From positions 1 to 43,135 of the forward strand of contig JAFTEW010000015.1 of assembly GCA_017453485.1 (NCBI GenBank): a DNA stretch of 43,135 nucleotides, written 5' to 3'. Made by a program: the position numbers and the translations under genes. The notes below the pieces were generated by a model. That model was not told the origin of the DNA, did no database searches, and was given only the letters and a program-made list of their open reading frames with translations. Numbering within the stretch: the stretch's first letter is position 1; each line of letters opens with the position of its first letter. Below are positions 2,944 through 43,088 of the stretch, piece by piece. The stretch is from Alphaproteobacteria bacterium. GTDB taxonomy: Bacteria; Pseudomonadota; Alphaproteobacteria; CAAHEQ01; UBA3637.

Positions 2944-5900
2944 ATGTATCGTAAAATAATTGCTTTTGGTTTAATGACAAGTTTGCTTTTCGGATTATCA
3001 AACGGGACGTATGCCGCTGGCTCGGCTGTTGGATTATCCCCGCGGAAGGCTATCTATCAGGCGGCGCGCACCGGGAATGTTAAGGCTGTTGAAAATTTGG
3101 TGCGGCAGGGATTTTCTTTGGAAACAGTTGATTCAAACGGAAATACGGCCCTATGTGCTTCGGTGGCGTTGAAAGATGTGACCGCCTATAATACATTGAT
3201 TGCCGCCGGGGCAGATCCGAATGCCGATTGTATGAAGAATATGTCGGCCGCCCGGAAAGAGCGTTTCTGTGCCGGTAGGGGAATTGCCGATCGGTCCATC
3301 TGTACCGGGGTGGCTAAATCAGGTATTATCACGTCCAATATTTGGGCTGACGCGGCCGGGGTTGCCGTTTTGGGGACAGTTGCTGTGGCGGCTGCCAGCG
3401 GCGGTGGCGGTGGTGGCGGCAGCAGTGGTGGTGGAGACGACGGCGGGTCTGGCGGCGGGTCCGATTCGGGGCTATGCGCCAATGTTGATTGCGGATTTCA
3501 CGGAAACTGTGATTCAAATACGGGAACCTGTATTTGTGAAACGGGTTGGTCGGGTACTTATTGTACCGAACAGGAAGACGTGACACCGTCTTGTGATGAT
3601 GTGGATTGCGGGGACCATGGGACCTGTAATGCCGGTGCTTGTATCTGTGCCGACGGGTGGAGTGGCTCAACTTGTAATATCGCGCCGGATGCTTGTTATA
3701 ATGTAAGTTGCGGGGCACATGGTTCCTGCTCAAACGGAACGTGTAGTTGTCGGGACGGATTTTCGGGAACAAATTGTGAAGTGCCGCCGACAACCGAATT
3801 AACGGAAGAAACGACAATGGATGAACAAAGTGGCGTTCCCTGCGATGATGGTGAAGTTATCAATGGTGTGTGTACGAAACCGGTCCAATCGGGTAATGAT
3901 GAGCATGCAGTCGTTGAACAAAATGATCCGGATGCAACGACGAATCCTCTGTTTTTGGCTGAATTCGGCGGAAATGTCGAAAATACGGGTGACGTGGAAC
4001 GCTCCGGCTCATCGACCGAACAATTTGTTGGTATGTGGGCGAACGGTGTTGGGGCGGATGCTTTGTCGCCTGGTGGTTCAACCGTCGATTTGACAAAGGC
4101 GTCAAAAGCCACAAACAGCGGGACCCTGACATTGACGGAAGAAACGGTTGATGATAAAGGAATTATCGGAATGAAAGCCACATCGGCCGGCACCATTAAA
4201 AATACCGGAACAATTGATTTGACGACAAAATCTCCGAATCAGTCTGCGGCCATGCTGGCTAAGGGAAAGGGATTGGCTGTTGAAAATCAGGGGATCATTA
4301 ACCTGAATCCGACAGAATCTTCTTGGGACATGACAGGGATGTCTGGGGCCGATCGAAATGTATTGAATGATACGGACGGGCAAATCAATATCGTGATGGG
4401 TCAAAAAACATCGGGATTAACGACCGAAAAAGGTTCGGTTGTCGGCATGACCGGTGATTTTGTTTTGAATCGCGGCACGATCACGGCCAAAGTTGATGAT
4501 ACCGTTCCGGAGGGCCAAACGGTTCAAACAGATTTGCGCTTGATAGAAGCCGGTCCGAATGGCATGGCTTTCAATGACGGCACCATCAATTTGGATATTA
4601 CGAATATGATGTTTAATGTGTCGGCTTTGGCGCCGTCCGGTGGGGCGTCGGGGGCAAAGTTGACCAACAACGGCACGATGAATGTGACGGGGGATTTGTA
4701 TTATGATTCCGCGTTGAGTAAACAGGTCTACCTGATGGGGACTGCGGATACATCTTCTACATTATTGAATGAAGGTTTGATTGATGTGGATATTGATGTG
4801 TCTAAGGGCGGCTTGTTTGGAGTGATGAACGGCAATGGCGGTACACAAACCAATAATAAGGATATTAAGGTCAAATTGACTTCCGTCGGGGCAACGGATG
4901 GCTTCTATGCATCTGTGTTTGATTCGCAGGCCGGTTCACAAGTAAATAACGGGACAGTTGATGTGACGTTTGCTCCGGGTGTAGCAAATTCAAGTTCCTT
5001 CTTTACTGTTATGGATTATCATGGTGGTGAAGGCGGAGTTGATCAAACCAATAACGGTTTGATTCGAATGACATCCGAAATGGACGGCCTGTCGGTTGTT
5101 GCCATGACCGGGGCCGGAGCAAAAGTAAACGGTGCCGAAGGAGAAATTCACCTGATCAGCAGCGCAAACAATTCTTCTTTGGCTGCAATCGGCGGTGGTG
5201 GCGGATCGGCCAATAATAGCGGTAAGGTCTTCTTGGAACACAATGGCGGTAGCGGCAGTATTGTCGGCTTTGGTGGCGCCAATGAAGGTAAAATCTATAT
5301 CCGGGCCAATGATATGACGGGAATGACGGGTATTAACGGTGCTTCCATCGCACCGGGTGGGGCTACCGTTGATGACAGCAAAGGGTTGATTGATATTAAA
5401 CTGACGGGAAGCACGTATGGTGCTGTGGCAGGGGCTTCCGTCGCCGGTGCCGGAACCCTTAATAATGCCAATAAAGTAAGTATTGAAGCGAAGGATTCTT
5501 TGCGTGCCGGTGATTTAATGGCTGTGGGTATGACGGTCCTTGAAGGTGCTCAACTCAATCGGGGGGGCGATACGATTATAAATGTGAACGGTTCTACCTC
5601 CGGCAAAACGCAAATTTGGGGTCTGCAATCTGAAAATGCTCATATTACGAATAACGGGGATATCCGTATCACATCCGATTTAACGAACAGTAACCAACAT
5701 GTTGTTATCGGTATGGAATCGCAGGATACCCAGCGTTCAGAATTAACGCAGTATAAAGCGATTAACAATAACCGGATTCGAATTAATGTGACCGGTGGTA
5801 AAAGCAGCATACATCGGGACGGTATCCCGTTTGATGTGGTCGGTATGGCGACGAATTCTTATGCTGAAAACAGTGGCACCGGGGTTATTTCAATCAATGT

Positions 5901-7626
5901 TTCCGGTGATGCCAAAGCGGCCGGTATGGTGGCCTATGATGCCGGTCAGATTGTGAATAAGGGAACGATTATCTTTACCGGTAATGCCGATAATTTTACG
6001 CCGTTTTACGGGACGGGTCTTCGGAACATTGATTTGGCTTGGGATAAAGACGGTAATGTCATTAAAAAGACAACTGTTTATGCGTCGGTTTATAATGGCG
6101 GCGATATCATTATCAACAATATGCCGATTAGCATAACCAATGCCCAAGGTCACGGTTATGAAGGCAGCGGTTGGGCCAGACGAACCTATGACTGGGTTGA
6201 AAACGATGAAGAAGGCAATCCGGTGAACGATTTTGTTTTAAATAAGGATGAAACAAATGTTGATTCATTTACGGAATACAATACGCTCGGCACGCCGTTC
6301 GCCAATGTGGAAGATGTGACGACTCCCTCCTTTATTTTAAATAACGGTGTTCGGTATGTGTCTGAACAAAACGGAACATTGAATGCAAACGGATCTCACC
6401 TGATCGGGGAAATTACGGCTGGTACGTCATTAGCGTTAAACGGCAATAAGGATATCTATATCGGTGATGGTAAAGGGTCCGGAGCCGTAATCGGTGACGG
6501 GGATTTTTCGGATTTGACCTTTGTCTCTGATTCGCCCCTGTTTACCGCAGGATATCGCATCAATGATAAAAACAGTAACGGACTGGATATCGTTCTGACG
6601 CGTCGGTCTTTTGCCGATGTTGTATCGGATGCCTCTTTGGCCGATTATTTAGAGCGGAACTATGTAGCCGGATATAATGAATCATTCTTTAATGAATTGA
6701 AGTCGTTTAATAATCGGCAGAGTTTGATGGCCGGACTCAATCAAATGACCGGTCGAGATATGTTGTCACGCTTTAATTTTGAAGATATGACAATGATTCG
6801 GGAATTAAATGTTGATATGAACAATCAACTGTTCCGTCGTCCGGAAGCGGCCTTTGCAACGGCGGGTATTGTTAAGCCGATGGCATTTAGTGGAGATATC
6901 GGTTCGGAAAGCCGGTATAGTCTGTTTAATAAACGGCGGGGAAATTTATCCGTCGGCTTCGGGGTAGCATTTACCGATGTCCGATCCGATGATACACATA
7001 ACAGTAATGACCGGAAGGAAACAATGTATCAATTGGTTGTTCCGGTTGGCTATCGTGCTGCTGGGATGCACTTTATTACATCGCCGCGTATCGGATATGC
7101 CAGAGGTAATTATGACCGTGTCGGCTTTAATAATCAATCCTATGACGGAACGATGGAAAAGCGAATTTTCGGCTTGATGAATGAAGCGCGTTATCCGATG
7201 ACTTTTGGGGATTGGACGGTTGAACCGGCGGCTGAATTGAATGTGTTGGGGATGAGTCAACGGGGAAAAGAAGACCGGAAAGATTACAGCCTGAATATTA
7301 AGTCGCAGAACACCTATTCTGTGGAAAGTGGAATCGGATTATATCTGACACGGGCCGAAGAATTAAGCAAGGATTCTCGTGTTAAGTTGACGGCCGGCGT
7401 CGCAGGATACCATGAATTTGCCGATCCGTATCGGTTGGATGTCGGGATGAACGGATTGATGGGAACATTCCGGCTTCGTGATGAAAAGCGGTCCGATAAT
7501 CGGGGAATCATTCGGTTAGGACTGGATTATGATTATCGGGATTTGTCGGTTTACGGGTCCTTTATCTCTTATATTGATCGGGAAGTTCGGTCTGCCGTTA
7601 AATCCGGTATGAAATTGAAATTTTAA
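2944..7626 (+). CDS. Large autotransporter with ankyrin-like and EGF-like modules
   Basis: This 1560-residue protein looks like a type V (autotransporter) surface protein. Residues 1-24 form a signal peptide. Residues about 33-100 look like two ankyrin repeats (AARTGNVKAVENLVRQG, then GNTALCASVALKD and LIAAGADPNADC). A hydrophobic stretch and a long Gly/Ser linker follow (about 135-175). Three EGF-like modules, each with six Cys and ending GWSGTYC, GWSGSTC or GFSGTNC, occupy about 177-282. Residues 300-1250 are a repetitive passenger rich in N-N-G-x-I/M and N-x-G-T motifs, typical of a beta-helix. The last ~270 residues look like an outer-membrane barrel and end in the aromatic residue F, as autotransporter barrels do. 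The start follows AAGGAG. The prepilin-like gene begins 16 nt after the stop. The function is probably adhesion or host contact, which is inference. Confidence 0.88.
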   Translation: MYRKIIAFGLMTSLLFGLSNGTYAAGSAVGLSPRKAIYQAARTGNVKAVENLVRQGFSLETVDSNGNTALCASVALKDVTAYNTLIAAGADPNADCMKNMSAARKERFCAGRGIADRSICTGVAKSGIITSNIWADAAGVAVLGTVAVAAASGGGGGGGSSGGGDDGGSGGGSDSGLCANVDCGFHGNCDSNTGTCICETGWSGTYCTEQEDVTPSCDDVDCGDHGTCNAGACICADGWSGSTCNIAPDACYNVSCGAHGSCSNGTCSCRDGFSGTNCEVPPTTELTEETTMDEQSGVPCDDGEVINGVCTKPVQSGNDEHAVVEQNDPDATTNPLFLAEFGGNVENTGDVERSGSSTEQFVGMWANGVGADALSPGGSTVDLTKASKATNSGTLTLTEETVDDKGIIGMKATSAGTIKNTGTIDLTTKSPNQSAAMLAKGKGLAVENQGIINLNPTESSWDMTGMSGADRNVLNDTDGQINIVMGQKTSGLTTEKGSVVGMTGDFVLNRGTITAKVDDTVPEGQTVQTDLRLIEAGPNGMAFNDGTINLDITNMMFNVSALAPSGGASGAKLTNNGTMNVTGDLYYDSALSKQVYLMGTADTSSTLLNEGLIDVDIDVSKGGLFGVMNGNGGTQTNNKDIKVKLTSVGATDGFYASVFDSQAGSQVNNGTVDVTFAPGVANSSSFFTVMDYHGGEGGVDQTNNGLIRMTSEMDGLSVVAMTGAGAKVNGAEGEIHLISSANNSSLAAIGGGGGSANNSGKVFLEHNGGSGSIVGFGGANEGKIYIRANDMTGMTGINGASIAPGGATVDDSKGLIDIKLTGSTYGAVAGASVAGAGTLNNANKVSIEAKDSLRAGDLMAVGMTVLEGAQLNRGGDTIINVNGSTSGKTQIWGLQSENAHITNNGDIRITSDLTNSNQHVVIGMESQDTQRSELTQYKAINNNRIRINVTGGKSSIHRDGIPFDVVGMATNSYAENSGTGVISINVSGDAKAAGMVAYDAGQIVNKGTIIFTGNADNFTPFYGTGLRNIDLAWDKDGNVIKKTTVYASVYNGGDIIINNMPISITNAQGHGYEGSGWARRTYDWVENDEEGNPVNDFVLNKDETNVDSFTEYNTLGTPFANVEDVTTPSFILNNGVRYVSEQNGTLNANGSHLIGEITAGTSLALNGNKDIYIGDGKGSGAVIGDGDFSDLTFVSDSPLFTAGYRINDKNSNGLDIVLTRRSFADVVSDASLADYLERNYVAGYNESFFNELKSFNNRQSLMAGLNQMTGRDMLSRFNFEDMTMIRELNVDMNNQLFRRPEAAFATAGIVKPMAFSGDIGSESRYSLFNKRRGNLSVGFGVAFTDVRSDDTHNSNDRKETMYQLVVPVGYRAAGMHFITSPRIGYARGNYDRVGFNNQSYDGTMEKRIFGLMNEARYPMTFGDWTVEPAAELNVLGMSQRGKEDRKDYSLNIKSQNTYSVESGIGLYLTRAEELSKDSRVKLTAGVAGYHEFADPYRLDVGMNGLMGTFRLRDEKRSDNRGIIRLGLDYDYRDLSVYGSFISYIDREVRSAVKSGMKLKF

Positions 7627-7642: not shown

Positions 7643-9025
7643 ATGACAGGGAAGCAACGTTATAGTGAAAACGGTAGAAGCATTATTGAAATTTTGGGTG
7701 TCTTGGCTATTATGGGCATCTTAACAATCGGTGCGGTTGCTTCTTTTCGATATGGAATGACCAAAAGTCGGACCAATCATATGATTGAGGATATTCAAAC
7801 CGCCTATTTAGAAGAAAGCGGATTGGTTCAGCATCATACGTTGTGGACGCCGGTGCACTTTACGCCGTCCAGCGGCACAGATTTAACCACGTTGTTTGAT
7901 AAGGCCTCCCATGTATTTGTAAAGGCGGCCGATGTTGATAAACGTGTTTGTGAAATGTTGTTGCGCGTCGGCTCTGATTATCGGTTTTCCTTCTATGACT
8001 TAGCCGGTAATGAAAAGACGGAATGTATTGATTCGGATGAAATCATTGTAGCCTTTAACGGCAGTGGTGCGCCGGTTGAATGCGGTGGAGCGTCTGATTG
8101 CGGGGAAGGATTTGAAGGGTATTGTAACGGGCGCGGTCGGTGTAAAGCCTGTCAGGCTGATCAGGAAACAGATCCGGAAGTTGAAGGATGTTTTTGTAAA
8201 GATGCCAATCAAACAACATGCGTGAATCAGACGGACACTTGGTGTTGCCCGAACACACAGTTGTGCGGTGAACAAGTCGGGGAATGTAAGGATTCCGATG
8301 GTAAGTGTGCCTATTATTTTGGTGTCACCGAAGACGATGGTGTTGTTTACTATGGGGATTGCAGCTATACCTGTTCCAAAGGTGGTGCTTCAACAACATA
8401 TGGCGCGAATTGTAGCTATACGGTTGGCACAACCGGTGGTTTGACGGGATATACGGATGCCGCCGGAACGGCACGCAATTATGCTTTACCGGGGGTGCAA
8501 TCGGTTCAAGGTTGCCCCGGCAATCAGTATTGCGCTATTTTTTGGACGCAGCCCGAATGGTCGGCCGACGGCTCGACACCATCTATCGGGGCGGCCTCAA
8601 CCGGTGTTGTTTACGGTAAGTGTCAGATGATGAGCTCTTATGAATCGACCCCTGTGGCCAAGGATTCGATTGATTCAGGGCTGGTTCGTGTGAACAAGGG
8701 ATGTCCTGCCAATCAATACTGTGCTATTTTTTGGACACAGCCCGAATGGCCGCACGGGTCGGCGACACCGACGGTTGCGGCGGCCGCTATGGGAACGTTA
8801 TACGGTCGGTGCCAGATGATGAATTCTTATGAATCAACACCGTTATCCAAAACCAAAACGGGTGCGGCAGCCGGCTATCATGTGGAAAAAGAGTGCCCCG
8901 AGGTTCAATTCTGTTCATTGAATTGGGCGGATGAAAATTGCACGGCCGCCGGGGCAAGTATTACCGGGACGGTGTTGGGGGCTTGCTCAAATATGAATGT
9001 CAGGAACACAACCTGCCCATATTAA
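7643..9025 (+). CDS. Prepilin-like Cys-rich surface protein with three internal repeats
   Basis: The N-terminus has a short basic leader and then GRSIIEILGVLAIMGILTIG, which resembles the type IV pilin / type II pseudopilin cleavage site and hydrophobic helix. The first residue after the Gly is Arg rather than the usual Phe/Met, with Glu at +4. The rest of the 460-residue protein is Cys-rich. Residues about 150-215 form a knottin- or EGF-like cluster. The C-terminal third holds three related ~60-residue units: two near-identical copies with NQYCAIFWTQPEW and YGxCQMMxSYESTP, and a degenerate third (VQFCSLNWADENC). A second protein with the same N-terminal architecture is at the far end of the window. 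The gene lies 16 nt after the autotransporter and 20 nt before the DGR accessory gene, which suggests co-transcription. No copy of the DGR template is found in it. The role is unknown. Confidence 0.82.
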   Translation: MTGKQRYSENGRSIIEILGVLAIMGILTIGAVASFRYGMTKSRTNHMIEDIQTAYLEESGLVQHHTLWTPVHFTPSSGTDLTTLFDKASHVFVKAADVDKRVCEMLLRVGSDYRFSFYDLAGNEKTECIDSDEIIVAFNGSGAPVECGGASDCGEGFEGYCNGRGRCKACQADQETDPEVEGCFCKDANQTTCVNQTDTWCCPNTQLCGEQVGECKDSDGKCAYYFGVTEDDGVVYYGDCSYTCSKGGASTTYGANCSYTVGTTGGLTGYTDAAGTARNYALPGVQSVQGCPGNQYCAIFWTQPEWSADGSTPSIGAASTGVVYGKCQMMSSYESTPVAKDSIDSGLVRVNKGCPANQYCAIFWTQPEWPHGSATPTVAAAAMGTLYGRCQMMNSYESTPLSKTKTGAAAGYHVEKECPEVQFCSLNWADENCTAAGASITGTVLGACSNMNVRNTTCPY

Positions 9026-9045: not shown

Positions 9046-9417
9046 ATGCCAAATAGTGAAGGCCTTCCGATTTATATTGACACTTACCATTTGGCACAGG
9101 ATGTTTTTGCCGATACCGTCAGTTTTCCGCGGGACTATAAGTTTATTTTAGGAACGCGTCTGAATAACGATGTGTTGGATTTGTGTTGCCTGATTGATCG
9201 GATCAATCGTGCCGATGACAAAGATGACTTGCTGGATATGTTTATTTCGGGATTAGAGCGTGTGCGTATCCAATTAAGGTTATGCGCAGACTTTAAACTG
9301 ATCGGTTTTCAAAGGCAGGCCGGCCTGGCCGAAATGATAGAAAAGATTTGGACACAGGCTGTTGCTTGGCAAAAAAGTGAAAGGAGGCGCCAAAAATCCG
9401 TGCCAGAATCGGGGTGA
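9046..9417 (+). CDS. avd: DGR accessory variability determinant (Avd-like four-helix protein)
   Basis: In known DGRs, Avd is a small basic four-helix-bundle protein that forms a barrel-shaped pentamer, binds the reverse transcriptase and the template RNA, and is required for mutagenic cDNA synthesis. This 123-residue protein is predicted almost wholly helical and has the family pattern: a helix with HLAQDVFADTVSFPRDYKF, then LGTRLNNDVLDLCCLIDRI, then an LERVRIQLRLCADFKLIG helix, and a closing W-x-x-S end. The ATG at 9046 was chosen because AAAGGA lies 7 nt upstream. The open frame extends further upstream but overlaps the prepilin gene. It sits between the prepilin gene and the template repeat, the usual neighbourhood of avd. 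The call rests on pattern and position, not on a database search. Confidence 0.85.
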   Translation: MPNSEGLPIYIDTYHLAQDVFADTVSFPRDYKFILGTRLNNDVLDLCCLIDRINRADDKDDLLDMFISGLERVRIQLRLCADFKLIGFQRQAGLAEMIEKIWTQAVAWQKSERRRQKSVPESG

Positions 9418-9541
9418 GTCACGGCCTCCCCGAGCGAGCATTTTTTTTAATTTTAAAAGGGCCGATCACCGTGCCCGGATAATGGGGCGGTAAAGACAAC
9501 AGTATCGGCTTGACCACGTGGGAAGAGATTCCCAATTTGCG

Positions 9542-9646
9542 ATTCCTCGAACGCGTATAACGTGAATCTTTCCTCAGGTGCGGTCAACAACAACAACCGT
9601 AACAACAACAACTACGCCTTGTGTGAGTAGAGTTTTCCCAGCTTTT
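9542..9646 (+). repeat. DGR template repeat (TR)
   Basis: This non-coding 105-bp sequence between the avd-like gene and the RT matches 11652-11756, the end of the target gene. It holds 30 adenines; 9 of them differ from the target copy and none of the other 75 bases differs. In the target frame it reads A-V, four AAC (Asn) codons, Arg, four AAC codons, then Y-A-L-C-E and stop. AAC is the classic DGR codon, because changes at its two adenines give many residues but never a stop. The differences are at 9550, 9587, 9592, 9596, 9601, 9604, 9605, 9610 and 9611. The last 35 bp (9612-9646) are identical in both copies and probably act as the initiation-of-mutagenic-homing segment. Confidence 0.97.
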
Positions 9647-9663
9647 GAAGTTAAAATATCCGG

Positions 9664-10938
9664 ATGGAACAAACAGATTTTTATGATTTATTAAGCGATT
9701 TAACACTGGATGAAGTATTTCGGGCTTATTTTGACTGTCGCCGACGTAAACGCCGCAGTCTGTCGTCATTGAAGTTTGAAGCCGAATATGAACGCAATCT
9801 GATGACATTATATCAGGAAATTGTTCATCGGATTTACCGTCCCACGGTGTCTCAGGCTTTTATTGTGAAAAAGCCCGTCATCCGTGAAGTTTTTGCGGCG
9901 CATTTTCGGGATCGGATTGTGCATCATTTGGTGATGGGACGTTTGATTCCGATTTTTGAGCGTATCTTTTCCGATTGTTCGTATAGTTGTCGCCTGAAAA
10001 AAGGGACACTTTACGGTATTCGTTCGGTTGCGGATATGATGCGGGAATGTTCCAACCTGTATCAACGGGATTGTTATGTCCTGCGGTTGGATATTCACGG
10101 TTTCTTTTTTCATATTGACAAGAACATTTTATATCGTAAAGTTAAGCAGGTAGTGGATTCTTGTTATTTTCATCGGAATAAGTCAACAATGATTTATCTG
10201 GTGCAACAGATATTGTCGGATAATCCCGTCACTCATTGCCATATCCGTGGGGATAAAGATGATTGGCAGGATTTGCCCAAAAATAAAAGTCTGTTTTTCA
10301 GCGGTTCTCATCGGGGATTACCGATCGGTAATTTAACCAGCCAGATTTTTGCGAATTTTTACCTGAATGATTTTGATCACTTTGTGGCCGGTTTGGACAC
10401 GAATTTATATTACGGGCGATATGTGGATGATTTGGTTTTAATTCATCCGGATGCCGATTATCTGATGCGGGTGCGGGAACAAATCCAAGTGTATCTGAAA
10501 ACGGAATTAGGATTGTCCTTGCATCCCCGAAAGGTATCATTACAACATTACGCCAAAGGATTTGCTTTCATCGGTGCGTATATCAAGCCCGGTTGCATTT
10601 ACCCGGGAAAGAGACTTCGGGTCTCTTTTTACCGTAAAATGACGGCATTAAACGGGGAATGGGCCCATACGCGACGACCGGCCGAGGATAAAGTTTTAAT
10701 TCAAAAAACATTATCCAGTATTAATTCCTATTTCGGTTTGTTAAAGTATTTCAATGCCTGGCGGGTTAAATTAAAAGGGTGGAATTTATTAAGCGAAGAA
10801 ATACGCGCCTGTTTTCAAACGGATGAAAGTTTGAAAAAAGTGTGGATAAAACCGGAGTTGAAAAGGGCACTATTGAAGCAAAGCCGGGATAAATTATTTG
10901 CACCGCTTCGCCGGCATCGCCGCCGTTATCGCCGATAG
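9664..10938 (+). CDS. DGR reverse transcriptase
   Basis: This 424-residue reverse transcriptase is related to group II intron RTs. It would copy the template-repeat RNA with adenine-directed errors, giving cDNA that replaces the variable repeat. Visible motifs are the early palm/finger block with RDRIVHHLVMGRLIPIFER (near residues 81-99), SYSCRLKKGT, the palm block VLRLDIHGFFFHID with the first catalytic Asp (near 143), GLPIGNLTSQIFANFYLND (218 onward; this G-x-P-I-G-N-x-T-S-Q form is characteristic of DGR RTs), the catalytic YVDD box at 253-256, and a primer-grip-like region near FAFIGAYIKPG. No maturase X or HNH endonuclease domain is present, against a group II intron. The ATG lies 17 bp after the template repeat, so template RNA and RT mRNA probably come from one transcript. 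The ribosome site is weak. Confidence 0.96.
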   Translation: MEQTDFYDLLSDLTLDEVFRAYFDCRRRKRRSLSSLKFEAEYERNLMTLYQEIVHRIYRPTVSQAFIVKKPVIREVFAAHFRDRIVHHLVMGRLIPIFERIFSDCSYSCRLKKGTLYGIRSVADMMRECSNLYQRDCYVLRLDIHGFFFHIDKNILYRKVKQVVDSCYFHRNKSTMIYLVQQILSDNPVTHCHIRGDKDDWQDLPKNKSLFFSGSHRGLPIGNLTSQIFANFYLNDFDHFVAGLDTNLYYGRYVDDLVLIHPDADYLMRVREQIQVYLKTELGLSLHPRKVSLQHYAKGFAFIGAYIKPGCIYPGKRLRVSFYRKMTALNGEWAHTRRPAEDKVLIQKTLSSINSYFGLLKYFNAWRVKLKGWNLLSEEIRACFQTDESLKKVWIKPELKRALLKQSRDKLFAPLRRHRRRYRR

Positions 10939-10965
10939 GGTGGGCGTAAACGCATAAAATCAATA

Positions 10966-11220
10966 TGTCATCCTTGCGCATTTTTCTCCCCCTGTCATCC
11001 TTGCGTAGGCGAGGATCCATAAACACATAAATCAATATGTCATCCTTGCGAAAGCGAGGATCCATAAACATGTAAAATCCACCTGTCATCCCTCGCTTGA
11101 CGGGGGATCCAGCGGACAAACGTCCGCATAAAGGAAGCCTTACATTCCCCATGGATGCCCGATCAGGTCGGGCATGACAGAGTATAAAAAGTGTCATCCT
11201 TGCGAAAGCGAGGATCCATA
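10966..11220 (+). repeat. Cluster of REP-like palindromes between RT and target gene
   Basis: The 424-bp gap between RT and target is largely made of palindromic units. Family A (TGTCATCC followed by TTGCGAAAGCGAGGATCC) is at 10993-11020, 11038-11064 and 11192-11220, with a truncated copy at 10966-10980. Its stem TCCTTGC/GCGAGGA is closed by a GAAA loop. Family B (TCCCTCGCTTGACGGGGGA) is at 11084-11110. Family D (GCGGAC-AAAC-GTCCGC) is at 11112-11127. Family C (GCCCGA-TCAGG-TCGGGC) is at 11157-11173. An open frame running through them on the minus strand is an artefact of the repeats. Confidence 0.9.
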
Positions 11221-11298
11221 AAACACGTAAAATCCACATATTCCCCCTTACATACCTTCTTCCGTCTAAAAAAAAAGACGAAAGGATATATTTTTTTC

Positions 11299-11327
11299 TT
11301 GCAATTAAAAAAAAGGTTGGTTATTCT
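11299..11327 (+). promoter_or_regulatory. Candidate promoter of the DGR target gene
   Basis: TTGCAA (11299-11304) and TATTCT (11322-11327) are separated by 17 bp, 35 bp before the target ATG. A strong AAAAGGAG ribosome site precedes the ATG. A short hairpin (CGTCT/AGACG, about 11265-11281) followed by a T-rich stretch just upstream may insulate the gene from the RT transcript. Confidence 0.5.
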
Positions 11328-11362
11328 GATACAAAAATATCAGTAAAAAAGGAGCTTTTACC

Positions 11363-11740
11363 ATGAAAAAAATCATCTGTGCCGTTTGTGTGGGGCTGTT
11401 ATGGGCATCGGCTGCATTGGCCGAAGGATGCGGCAACGGTGGCGGAACGGTTATTGTCGGCCTGGACGGCACACGTTATTGCAAAAGTAATATCACCATG
11501 AATTGGTGGAGTGCTTTTGCCTGGTGCGATGCGGCTGGCGGGTCATTGATAGATATGACACGGGAATGTAATAAGGTCACCGGAGAGACCGGATGCCCGA
11601 ATTTAACCGGTGTTGGCGGCAATCAATCGGTTTGGACAAAAAATGTGCCAAATTCCTCGTACGCGTATAACGTGAATCTTTCCTCAGGTGCGGTCAGCAA
11701 CTACACCCGTTACGCCAACTCCTACGCCTTGTGTGAGTAG
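11363..11740 (+). CDS. DGR-diversified small secreted protein
   Basis: This 125-residue protein is the variable target of the retroelement. Residues 1-20 form a clear Sec signal peptide (basic start, hydrophobic core, A-L-A before the cut). The mature ~105 residues carry DGTRYCKSNITMNWWSAF and W-C-D-A-A-G-G-S, a later Trp at WTKNVPN, and a closing ALCE. This resembles a minimal C-type-lectin-like fold of the kind most DGR targets use, but the fold is inferred. The template-derived part is about residues 97-125. Residues 100, 112, 114, 115, 117, 118 and 120 differ from the Asn encoded by the template, while 113 and 119 are unchanged. Six Cys after the signal peptide suggest disulphides outside the cytoplasm. 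No membrane anchor or sorting signal is visible. The display partner is unknown; the neighbouring prepilin-like and autotransporter proteins are candidates by position only. Confidence 0.92.
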   Translation: MKKIICAVCVGLLWASAALAEGCGNGGGTVIVGLDGTRYCKSNITMNWWSAFAWCDAAGGSLIDMTRECNKVTGETGCPNLTGVGGNQSVWTKNVPNSSYAYNVNLSSGAVSNYTRYANSYALCE

Positions 11741-11756
11741 AGTTTTCCCAGCTTTT
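11652..11756 (+). repeat. DGR variable repeat (VR)
   Basis: This is the target copy of the template at 9542-9646. All nine mismatches are template A to T, G or C (four to T, two to G, three to C). The VR covers the last ~29 codons, the TAG stop (11738-11740) and 16 bp beyond it. The invariant 3' part, with GAGTAGAGTTTTCCCAGC, spans the stop codon. Confidence 0.97.
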
Positions 11757-11776
11757 AAAACGTAAATTTTGTCTTT

Positions 11777-11797
11777 GGCCTGCGCGTGTCGCAGGCC
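11777..11797 (+). other. GC-rich hairpin downstream of the variable repeat
   Basis: GGCCTGCG (11777-11784) and CGCAGGCC (11790-11797) form a perfect 8-bp stem with a 5-nt loop, 20 bp after the end of the VR. In the Bordetella phage DGR an 8-bp stem with a tetranucleotide loop just beyond the VR, absent after the TR, stimulates mutagenic homing (established knowledge). No comparable hairpin follows the TR here. It could also be the stem of the target-gene terminator, but no T tract follows it. Confidence 0.7.
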
Positions 11798-11891
11798 ATA
11801 TTGCGCGGGTCCATTTAAAAGGACGCCGCGCCGGGTCGCCCTCGACCCGTGGCAAGGGGTAGGGGGAGTGGTATTAGCTCATAGGAAAAAC

Positions 11892-12057: not shown

Positions 12058-12154
12058 GTCGGGCATGACAGAGTAAAAACTGTCATCCTTGCGAAGGCGA
12101 GGATCCATTAAACACATGAAATCCACCTGTCATCCCTCGCTTGACGGGGGATCC
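12058..12154 (+). repeat. REP-like palindromes upstream of the GIY-YIG gene
   Basis: This block has half a family C unit (TCGGGCATGACAGAG, 12058-12072), a family A unit (12081-12108) and a family B unit (12128-12154), in the same orientation as the cluster at 10966-11220. The order and spacers resemble that cluster, so the block is probably a partial duplication of it. Confidence 0.88.
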
Positions 12155-12175
12155 AAAAAACAAGAAGTCAATATA

Positions 12176-12466
12176 TCATCGGCATATATCGGGATACAAA
12201 TCATTCCAATCGGGATTCTGATTCTGTATTAACTTGATTTTCCAGTCGCGTTTCCAATGCTTTAATTGTTTCTCTCGCGCTATGGCACCACGTTCGTCTT
12301 GCCAAACCTCGTAATAGACCAACCGCCCAACATGGTATTTATCGGTAAAACCCTCAACGACATGGTTTCTATGTTCCCAAACCCGTTTGGACAGGTTGCC
12401 TGTTACACCGATATACAGGGTGCCGTTCGGTGCGCTGGCCATAATGTAAACATACATTTGTTTCAT
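12176..12466 (-). CDS. Small GIY-YIG nuclease domain protein (UPF0213/YhbQ-like)
   Basis: This 96-residue single-domain protein begins MKQMYVYIMASAPNGTLYIG, where Y-V-Y and Y-I-G are the two halves of the GIY-YIG signature. NLSKRVWEHRNH carries the catalytic Arg of the family, and AREKQLKHWKRDWKIKLI is the conserved helix with the catalytic Glu. Members such as YhbQ are small nucleases of uncertain function. No DNA-binding extension is present, unlike homing endonucleases. The gene is enclosed by REP-like palindromes on both sides and stands opposite to its neighbours. The ribosome site is weak, and a second ATG lies two codons in. The association with repeats suggests, but does not show, a role in their spread. 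Confidence 0.9.
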   Translation of the reverse strand: MKQMYVYIMASAPNGTLYIGVTGNLSKRVWEHRNHVVEGFTDKYHVGRLVYYEVWQDERGAIAREKQLKHWKRDWKIKLIQNQNPDWNDLYPDICR

Positions 12467-12532
12467 AAGGCGAAGGTATATGATATATTCATTTTCGTCA
12501 AGGTGTTTTTTATGGGGACTTCTTTATTTTAT

Positions 12533-12711
12533 GGATCCTCGCTTTCGCAAGGATGACATATTGATTTATGTGTTTATGGATCCCCCGTCAAGCGAGGGAT
12601 GACACTTTTTATACTCTGTCATGCCCGACCTGATCGGGCATCCATAGAAAATATAAGGCCTCCTTTATACGGACATTCGTCCGCTGGATCCCCGCTTTCG
12701 CAGGGATGACA
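12533..12711 (-). repeat. REP-like palindrome cluster in inverted orientation
   Basis: Read on the minus strand this block contains the same A, D, C, B, A families as the cluster at 10966-11220: A at 12685-12711 and 12533-12560, B at 12578-12604, C at 12623-12639 and D at 12669-12684. The stretch about 12597-12690 is an imperfect inverted copy of about 11105-11200, including the spacer GACAGAGTATAAAAAGTG. The rest of 12467-12892 holds only the tRNA promoter. Confidence 0.9.
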
Positions 12712-12808
12712 TAGAGATTTTACATGTTTATGGATTATTTGTATTTATAAGGGCGGCAAGGGTATATCGTGACAAAATCCGCTTTTTACAAAAAAGCCAA
12801 AAAAACAC

Positions 12809-42146: not shown

Positions 42147-43088
42147 TTATAAGTTAAAACATTGGTCAAATTTACTATAATCCCATACGTTTGAAGCGCA
42201 ACAAAATTCATTTTCATCATCCCAACGGTATCCGGCATCATTACAACATTTTTGATTTAATATTGTTGTACAACATTCTGTCCCCATTATCGTCCCGTCA
42301 GCACAACAAAAATTACCTGAATAATTCCAATTTCCTATTGATTCGCAACATCCAATATTACCACCGGCCCAATGCATCTCTAATAATTCACAGCATTTTT
42401 GACCCTCATTTCCGTCCGGAGAACAACATTTCCCTGTTCCGTCACATACAGAAGAACCATCAACACCGACACATGAGCTTCCTTCATTACTATAAGTAAT
42501 TACGCCATTTTTACATGATTGACAACCGTCATGAGTATCAAAATTTGCCGGGCAGACAGGTGTTTCGGGTTCGTCGTTTCCGGTGTCCTCTCCGGACTCC
42601 CCACCGGTTCCGTTCGTGGCCGATTTCTTTGTCAGCGTATTACTGAACACAAAGGCGATTTTATTGGCTTCCCCCTGATCACAGGAATCGGATTCACCGT
42701 TGATGGCAACGTCCTCCGGGACTTTCCAATCCATACCCTTAATCCGTTCACAAACCTCGTCATTCATATCCGATATGATAATGGAAAAGGTTCCGTCATT
42801 GTTCTGTGCCGTTTCTACGCCAAAGGCACCACTGATGGACAGGTTTCCATTCGCGTCTTTCCATTCCGGTAGAGTCAGGCTTCCTTGGGTCGTCAGTTCC
42901 GTGCTGGCTGTCACCGCCATCTGTGATACAGCATTCAAAATCGTATTGGCATTGGATTTGTTAATGGCATAGCGGTATCCGGCTATTCCCCCGATGGTCA
43001 ATACCCCCATAATGGCCAAGGTCCCCAGCATCTCTACCATACTCCGCCCCGATTGGGTGTTGATATATCTGATTTGTTTTTGTGACAT
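42147..43088 (-). CDS. Prepilin-like Cys-rich surface protein
   Basis: The N-terminus ends its basic leader at SGRSMVEMLGTLAIMGVLTI and continues into GGIAGYRYAINKSNANT, the same prepilin-like architecture as the protein at 7643-9025. Residues up to about 165 look like a pilin-type head with an acidic Gly/Glu linker (near 160-178). The rest of the 313 residues is Cys-rich with many C-C pairs (CCSPDGNEGQKCC, GCCES, ECCTTI, QKCCNDAG), probably disulphide-stabilised. No DGR variable repeat is visible in it. AAAGGAAC precedes the start. The gene is isolated by 163 bp from aas, a stretch in which no further feature was seen. Confidence 0.8.
   Translation of the reverse strand: MSQKQIRYINTQSGRSMVEMLGTLAIMGVLTIGGIAGYRYAINKSNANTILNAVSQMAVTASTELTTQGSLTLPEWKDANGNLSISGAFGVETAQNNDGTFSIIISDMNDEVCERIKGMDWKVPEDVAINGESDSCDQGEANKIAFVFSNTLTKKSATNGTGGESGEDTGNDEPETPVCPANFDTHDGCQSCKNGVITYSNEGSSCVGVDGSSVCDGTGKCCSPDGNEGQKCCELLEMHWAGGNIGCCESIGNWNYSGNFCCADGTIMGTECCTTILNQKCCNDAGYRWDDENEFCCASNVWDYSKFDQCFNL

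Follow-up and report, generated by a model that had tools for sequence, protein, structure and literature searches.

Diversity-generating retroelements (DGRs) are usually pictured as cassettes in which the reverse transcriptase (RT) and the template are linked. In the DGR of Bordetella phage BPP-1 (avd-TR-brt, mtd), as in the locus described here, Avd, a template repeat (TR) and an RT occur together with an adenine-specific variable repeat (VR) at the 3′ end of the gene for a C-type-lectin-fold target, and a hairpin comes after the VR. The layouts differ: in BPP-1 the TR follows avd with 0 nt intervening and is separated from brt by a 144-nt structured spacer, whereas our locus has a 124-nt structured leader 5′ of the TR and 17 nt 3′ of it; BPP-1 is a phage, whereas the present DGR is chromosomal. 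The 3′ spacer of BPP-1 recruits its RT–Avd (PMC12875486). Several TRs for one DGR are known, for example in Stenotrophomonas SKA14 (PMC6642488), but here the extra TRs are located on contigs other than that of the RT, have neither RT nor avd beside them, and come each with its own target and together with a shared, defined RNA structure. Remote targets diversified in trans have been described in Thiohalocapsa PB-PSB1 (PMC10907252) and in cyanobacteria (PMC7517822); like ours they are distant from the RT, but their VRs draw on a TR belonging to another DGR, whereas the remote VRs reported here have a local TR and would borrow RT–Avd only. Retron msr-msd RNA (PMC8867640) is likewise a structured RNA with paired ends that is copied by its RT, a likeness that is analogy only: our locus has no retron RT and no msDNA signature, and its TR is a homing donor. 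No precedent for template units that lack an RT, serve targets of their own and share a defined 5′ RNA domain and a closing helix was found in a literature search that was mostly open-access and did not cover the primary papers on BPP-1 RNA structure. We think it likely that the present locus is a chromosomal DGR with a self-contained, structured template RNA unit, and that two satellites of this unit are used in trans by a single RT–Avd.

The host is an Alphaproteobacteria bacterium from the gut, represented by a fragmented metagenome-assembled genome of 1.17 Mb (98.6% complete, 0.1% contaminated); its named relatives are uncultured alphaproteobacteria, several of them sourced from animal guts. 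The window, that is, the whole 43,135-nt stretch of DNA analysed (contig C50), places the DGR on the chromosome beside ribosomal-protein genes. Upstream of avd, an ankyrin/EGF/autotransporter-like gene is followed by a pseudopilin gene, and downstream of the DGR come a tRNA and secE-nusG-rplK-rplA-rplJ-rplL (named from their translations). A prophage or plasmid origin was ruled out on this placement, and is also disfavoured by the best phage and plasmid RTs being <40% identical. The autotransporter-like gene (2944–7626), directly upstream of the DGR block, encodes a surface protein of 1560 aa that has ankyrin and EGF-like repeats and ends in an autotransporter-like C-terminus. The type IV pseudopilin-like gene (7643–9025, +), which encodes Cys-rich repeats, heads a conserved pilin-avd-TR-RT block and is itself an undiversified neighbour; it also lies 5′ of avd in relatives (loci L037, L038, L039 and L040). 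Within it, two 152-nt direct repeats that are 71% identical (8510–8850) encode Cys-rich repeats, and these are expanded in relatives.

The evidence supports reading the locus as a complete DGR whose target is predicted to be a secreted protein of C-type-lectin fold, with all parts on the + strand. The Avd-like protein named in the first-pass annotation is encoded at 9046–9417 (avd, accessory variability determinant) and was recognised by NCBIfam (DivGenRetAVD, E = 1.8e-11, 44.2 bits) and Pfam (bAvd, 3.7e-8, 34.3 bits), both under their curated cut-offs, and by PHROG ('Avd protein of DGR', 1.2e-16). The RT (9664–10938; PHROG RT profile, 9.4e-81) carries the motif LPIGNLTSQ, of the (I/L)GxxxSQ type, together with YVDD, so that the motifs already reported from the letters alone (GLPIGNLTSQ and YVDD) are in place. 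Its closest solved structure by sequence is 8ub7 (E = 1.2e-22), which we take to be the BPP-1 DGR RT. Assignment of the RT to the DGR type is borne out by a tree in which it clusters with RTs from loci that are themselves equipped with adenine-specific TR/VR pairs; the tree contained no known non-DGR RTs. The BPP-1 RT lies across a well supported split of this tree, a placement to be read with caution given long branches.

The template repeat (TR1, 9542–9646) is non-coding, starts 124 nt after avd and ends 17 nt before the ATG of the RT gene, and the variable repeat (VR1, 11652–11756) lies at the 3′ end of the target ORF (target 1, 11363–11740), all three where the annotation had put them. Recomputing its count over the 105-bp alignment reproduced it: nine of nine mismatches fall on the 30 template adenines and 75 of 75 non-adenine positions are unchanged. 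Chance is indeed a very unlikely source of this pattern, but the figure of 1 in 80,000 given for it is the with-replacement version, and the hypergeometric p is 4.8e-6. The description of the target as secreted also held, at the level of prediction: a signal peptide was judged by eye, and the AlphaFold model (pLDDT 80) gave, among the top Foldseek matches listed from the PDB, C-type lectins or lectin-fold domains, the best being Bd2740 (8oks, E = 8e-4) and Legionella Lcl being one of them. Target 1 had no match in sequence families; orthologues are present in relatives. A hairpin (11776–11798) stands ~20 nt past VR1, and similar hairpins come after VR2, VR3 and the VRs of relatives; it may be a terminator or a counterpart of the BPP-1 target hairpin.

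The gene order had been called unusual, with the target downstream under its own promoter. The order is not special, since relatives keep the pilin-avd-TR-RT block while the position and strand of the target vary. The target does lie downstream, but no consensus promoter was found upstream of it. As the target strand is variable in relatives, transcription of the target separately from the avd-TR-RT block is plausible.

As an interpretation, the first-pass annotation is incomplete, having missed the structured 5′ RNA domain, the closing helix and the RT-less template/target pairs. A search of the 98.6% complete assembly found one RT only, and three TR cores (AACAACAACAACCGYAACAACAACAAC), on C50 (the window), C16 and C32. 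On C16, TR2 lies beside a secreted lectin paralogue that bears VR2 (target 2), and a paralogue of the pseudopilin stands upstream of it; on C32, TR3 is located after a pseudopilin whose lectin C-terminus bears VR3 (target 3). Neither avd nor RT, nor remnants of them, were seen next to TR2 or TR3. TR1 and TR3 each match their own VR only, and the best match of TR2 is VR2. Template adenines account for 11 of the 14 TR2/VR2 mismatches (three differences are non-adenine) and for 16/16 between TR3 and VR3, with all non-adenine positions identical. All nine TR1/VR1 changes lie within Asn codons (AAC/AAT), with 0 of the 5 other adenines altered; this confinement of template-adenine changes would also fit ordinary paralogous repeats that came to differ, without any retrohoming, through mutation and selection acting at Asn codons. 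Such an origin is scarcely credible, given that adenine-specific differences recur at three unlinked pairs (36/39 in all) and at TR/VR pairs in relatives, and that a DGR-type RT and Avd adjoin.

We infer, without expression or population data, that the single RT probably also serves the two RT-less template/target pairs in trans. Because the assembly is fragmented, it may lack a further RT or include a mis-binned contig. Mis-binning of C16 and C32 is unlikely because they share with the window pseudopilin sequence (491 bp, 87% identity), the VR2 end and flank (~300 bp, 88% identity) and palindromic repeats. The genome encodes a prepilin peptidase and a type II/IV secretion ATPase, and pilin-borne targets could therefore be processed and assembled. 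Some further sequences were noted beside these elements. A pseudopilin paralogue at 42147–43088 (−) of the window is 87% identical in DNA to target 3 across the N-terminal half of the latter, but has a different, Cys-rich C-terminus, pointing to a modular pilin family. The palindromic repeats (TGTCATCC...GGATGACA), at 10993–11230 and 12081–12735 of the window and at 236–430 and 1770–2110 of L016, are inserted in target 3, in frame and ahead of its pilin motif, as well as between leader 3 and TR3, and are reminiscent of Rickettsia palindromic elements. On contig C47 (L017, 5778–6605), a pseudopilin with a lectin C-terminus resembles the DGR targets, like a fourth target; no TR for it is present in the assembly, and what follows its stop codon is similar to a TR tail, as though recombination between VR and TR had frozen the gene.

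The template RNA unit (9379–9658, +) was delimited by blastn as the stretch common to TR1 and the satellite TR2 unit (L015, 2140–2415); the alignment of the two begins 39 nt before the end of avd and stops 6 nt short of the RT start. All three TRs share a structured leader of ~120 nt, with hairpins P1 (GUGCC..GAGCGAGCA, 9401–9440) and P2 (9460–9510), and a closing helix, P3. P1 overlaps the avd stop codon, and is retained in the TR2 and TR3 units despite there being no avd. In an alignment of the three host units and five relatives, P1 and P2 are paired in 95.5% of cells (25–39% in slid controls) and covary, with 24 double-change cells compared with 8.2 in shuffles, none of 500 of which reached 24. 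P3 joins the P1–P2 linker (5′ arm, 9445–9459) to the sequence directly after the TR (3′ arm, 9642–9656, within which TR/VR identity stops); it has 15 bp in TR1, TR2 and relative G003, one mismatch in TR3 and 12 bp in G019, and compensatory changes occur in P1–P3. In an 8 × 8 matrix, the native linker/tail pairing was best, or equal or nearly best, where sequences had diverged, as for the TR3 tail (−10.9 kcal/mol with its own linker, −2.2 to −5.3 with others), and 2 of 720 permutations attained the observed pairing. The significance of P3 rests only on this linker-restricted test; when P3 was sought in viral loci without that restriction, the result did not reach significance, as long upstream stretches pair by chance. 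The energy of folding the whole RNA is ordinary (z = −0.88), so the case for structure rests on covariation. At the gathering score, Rfam 15 gave no match to the leader and found only tRNA in the window and four related loci. The sequences after the TR2 and TR3 tails are unrelated, and the 17 nt between TR1 and RT hold no BPP-1-type spacer.

The RT-less units could instead be dead remnants of whole DGRs once present at C16 and C32, their VRs recording past activity in cis. The pseudopilin upstream of TR2, as in the full locus, the three non-adenine mismatches of TR2/VR2, and the ~340 nt of repeats that separate TR3 from its leader all fit such decay. Yet compensatory changes maintain P1, P2 and P3 pairing in both units, no trace of avd or RT adjoins either, the stretch common to TR1 and TR2 stops at the RNA unit and not at gene ends, and the agreement of every non-adenine position of TR3/VR3 implies that neutral drift has been slight since homing last took place. 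The maintained pairing and the clean TR3/VR3 pair thus oppose decay, which we hold improbable without excluding it; on the preferred reading, as satellites served in trans, the units may nevertheless be past their activity, given the three non-adenine mismatches of TR2.

We built a covariance model of the leader (R1), which matches the window at 9398–9514 with 103.7 bits. Within the family, the leader was found in 6 of 43 genomes, which are exactly the six with a full-length-type RT; it was absent from all 36 genomes without RT and from G001, whose RT is truncated. This co-occurrence partly reuses sequences behind the model. The host genome has three copies and each other leader-positive family genome has one. 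In a blind search of IMG/VR loci with RTs 37–45% identical, the best R1 matches lay directly 5′ of the TR in L042 (30.8 bits), L043 (26.9), L045 (25.4), L044 (22.8) and L046 (15.5), with scores elsewhere of at most 11.2. Weaker matches were correctly placed in L047, L052, L054 and L055; L048, L049 and L053 had no leader at the TR. The BPP-1 DGR did not match the model. A further blind scan of 385 alphaproteobacterial genomes used strict filters, which makes its negatives weak; it added one genome, G213, from another alphaproteobacterial family, where avd is followed by three tandem leader–TR units 246 nt apart, each with its own P3 of 16–18 bp, and then by the RT.

In most loci the leader lies upstream of the RT gene, as it would if kept for a role outside the DGR RNA, for example as a riboswitch or attenuator of RT. 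In L043, however, the order is RT-avd-leader-TR, with the leader downstream of RT and before the TR, and therefore the leader goes with the TR rather than with the RT. A regulatory role, which we regard as very unlikely, would also leave unexplained the C16 and C32 leaders without RT, the three G213 copies that each precede a TR, and the spanning of the TR by P3.

The G213 array (contig C22; L070, 6152–6890, and L092) has features of its own. Over 112 nt, the TR of its unit U1 shows no difference from a VR located ~20 kb away; this TR is poor in adenine (20 A and one AAC, compared with about 30 A and six AAC), as though VR sequence had been written back into the template. In that genome, the DGR 3′ repeat end is present at six remote sites, on C2, C17, C20, C22 and C24, with two identical copies on C24. 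Unit U2 matches the C2 site, with 16 of 18 differences at A, the best match of U3 is C20, and the C17 site reaches the contig end. It is possible, though we hold it doubtful, that the template unit of this DGR lineage behaves as a portable module, multiplying either as RT-less satellites (three units for one RT in the host) or as tandem arrays (three units in G213), and can be rewritten from a diversified VR, in which case G213 U1 could be an archive from which a proven variant is restored.

The mechanism that we propose for the window builds on observed parts, adenine bias at three TR/VR pairs, a single RT, a conserved and covarying RNA structure and its co-occurrence with the RT, but its working is inferred. 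In the RNA, P1 is followed by the P3 helix, which encloses P2 and the TR. A single RT–Avd complex would recognise the 5′ leader, and P3 would hold the 3′ end of the TR beside it for priming. Copying of the TR would then begin near this clamped end and introduce errors opposite adenines, and the resulting cDNA would take the place of the VR, which forms the 3′ end of the gene for a lectin-fold surface or secreted protein. Because the template unit is self-contained, the two copies that lack RT and avd could act in trans, the C16 and C32 units serving as satellite templates for a second secreted lectin and for a pseudopilin with a lectin C-terminus, respectively. That the system remains active is equally an inference.

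If this is true, adapting DGRs as mutagenesis tools for the laboratory would become easier, as a new target would need only a new template unit. The template-unit model also offers direct tests of template choice and priming by DGR RTs, and would allow orphan templates to be found by covariance model instead of by proximity to an RT. A compact, self-contained template RNA with a 5′ recognition domain would explain how one RT diversifies several unrelated targets.
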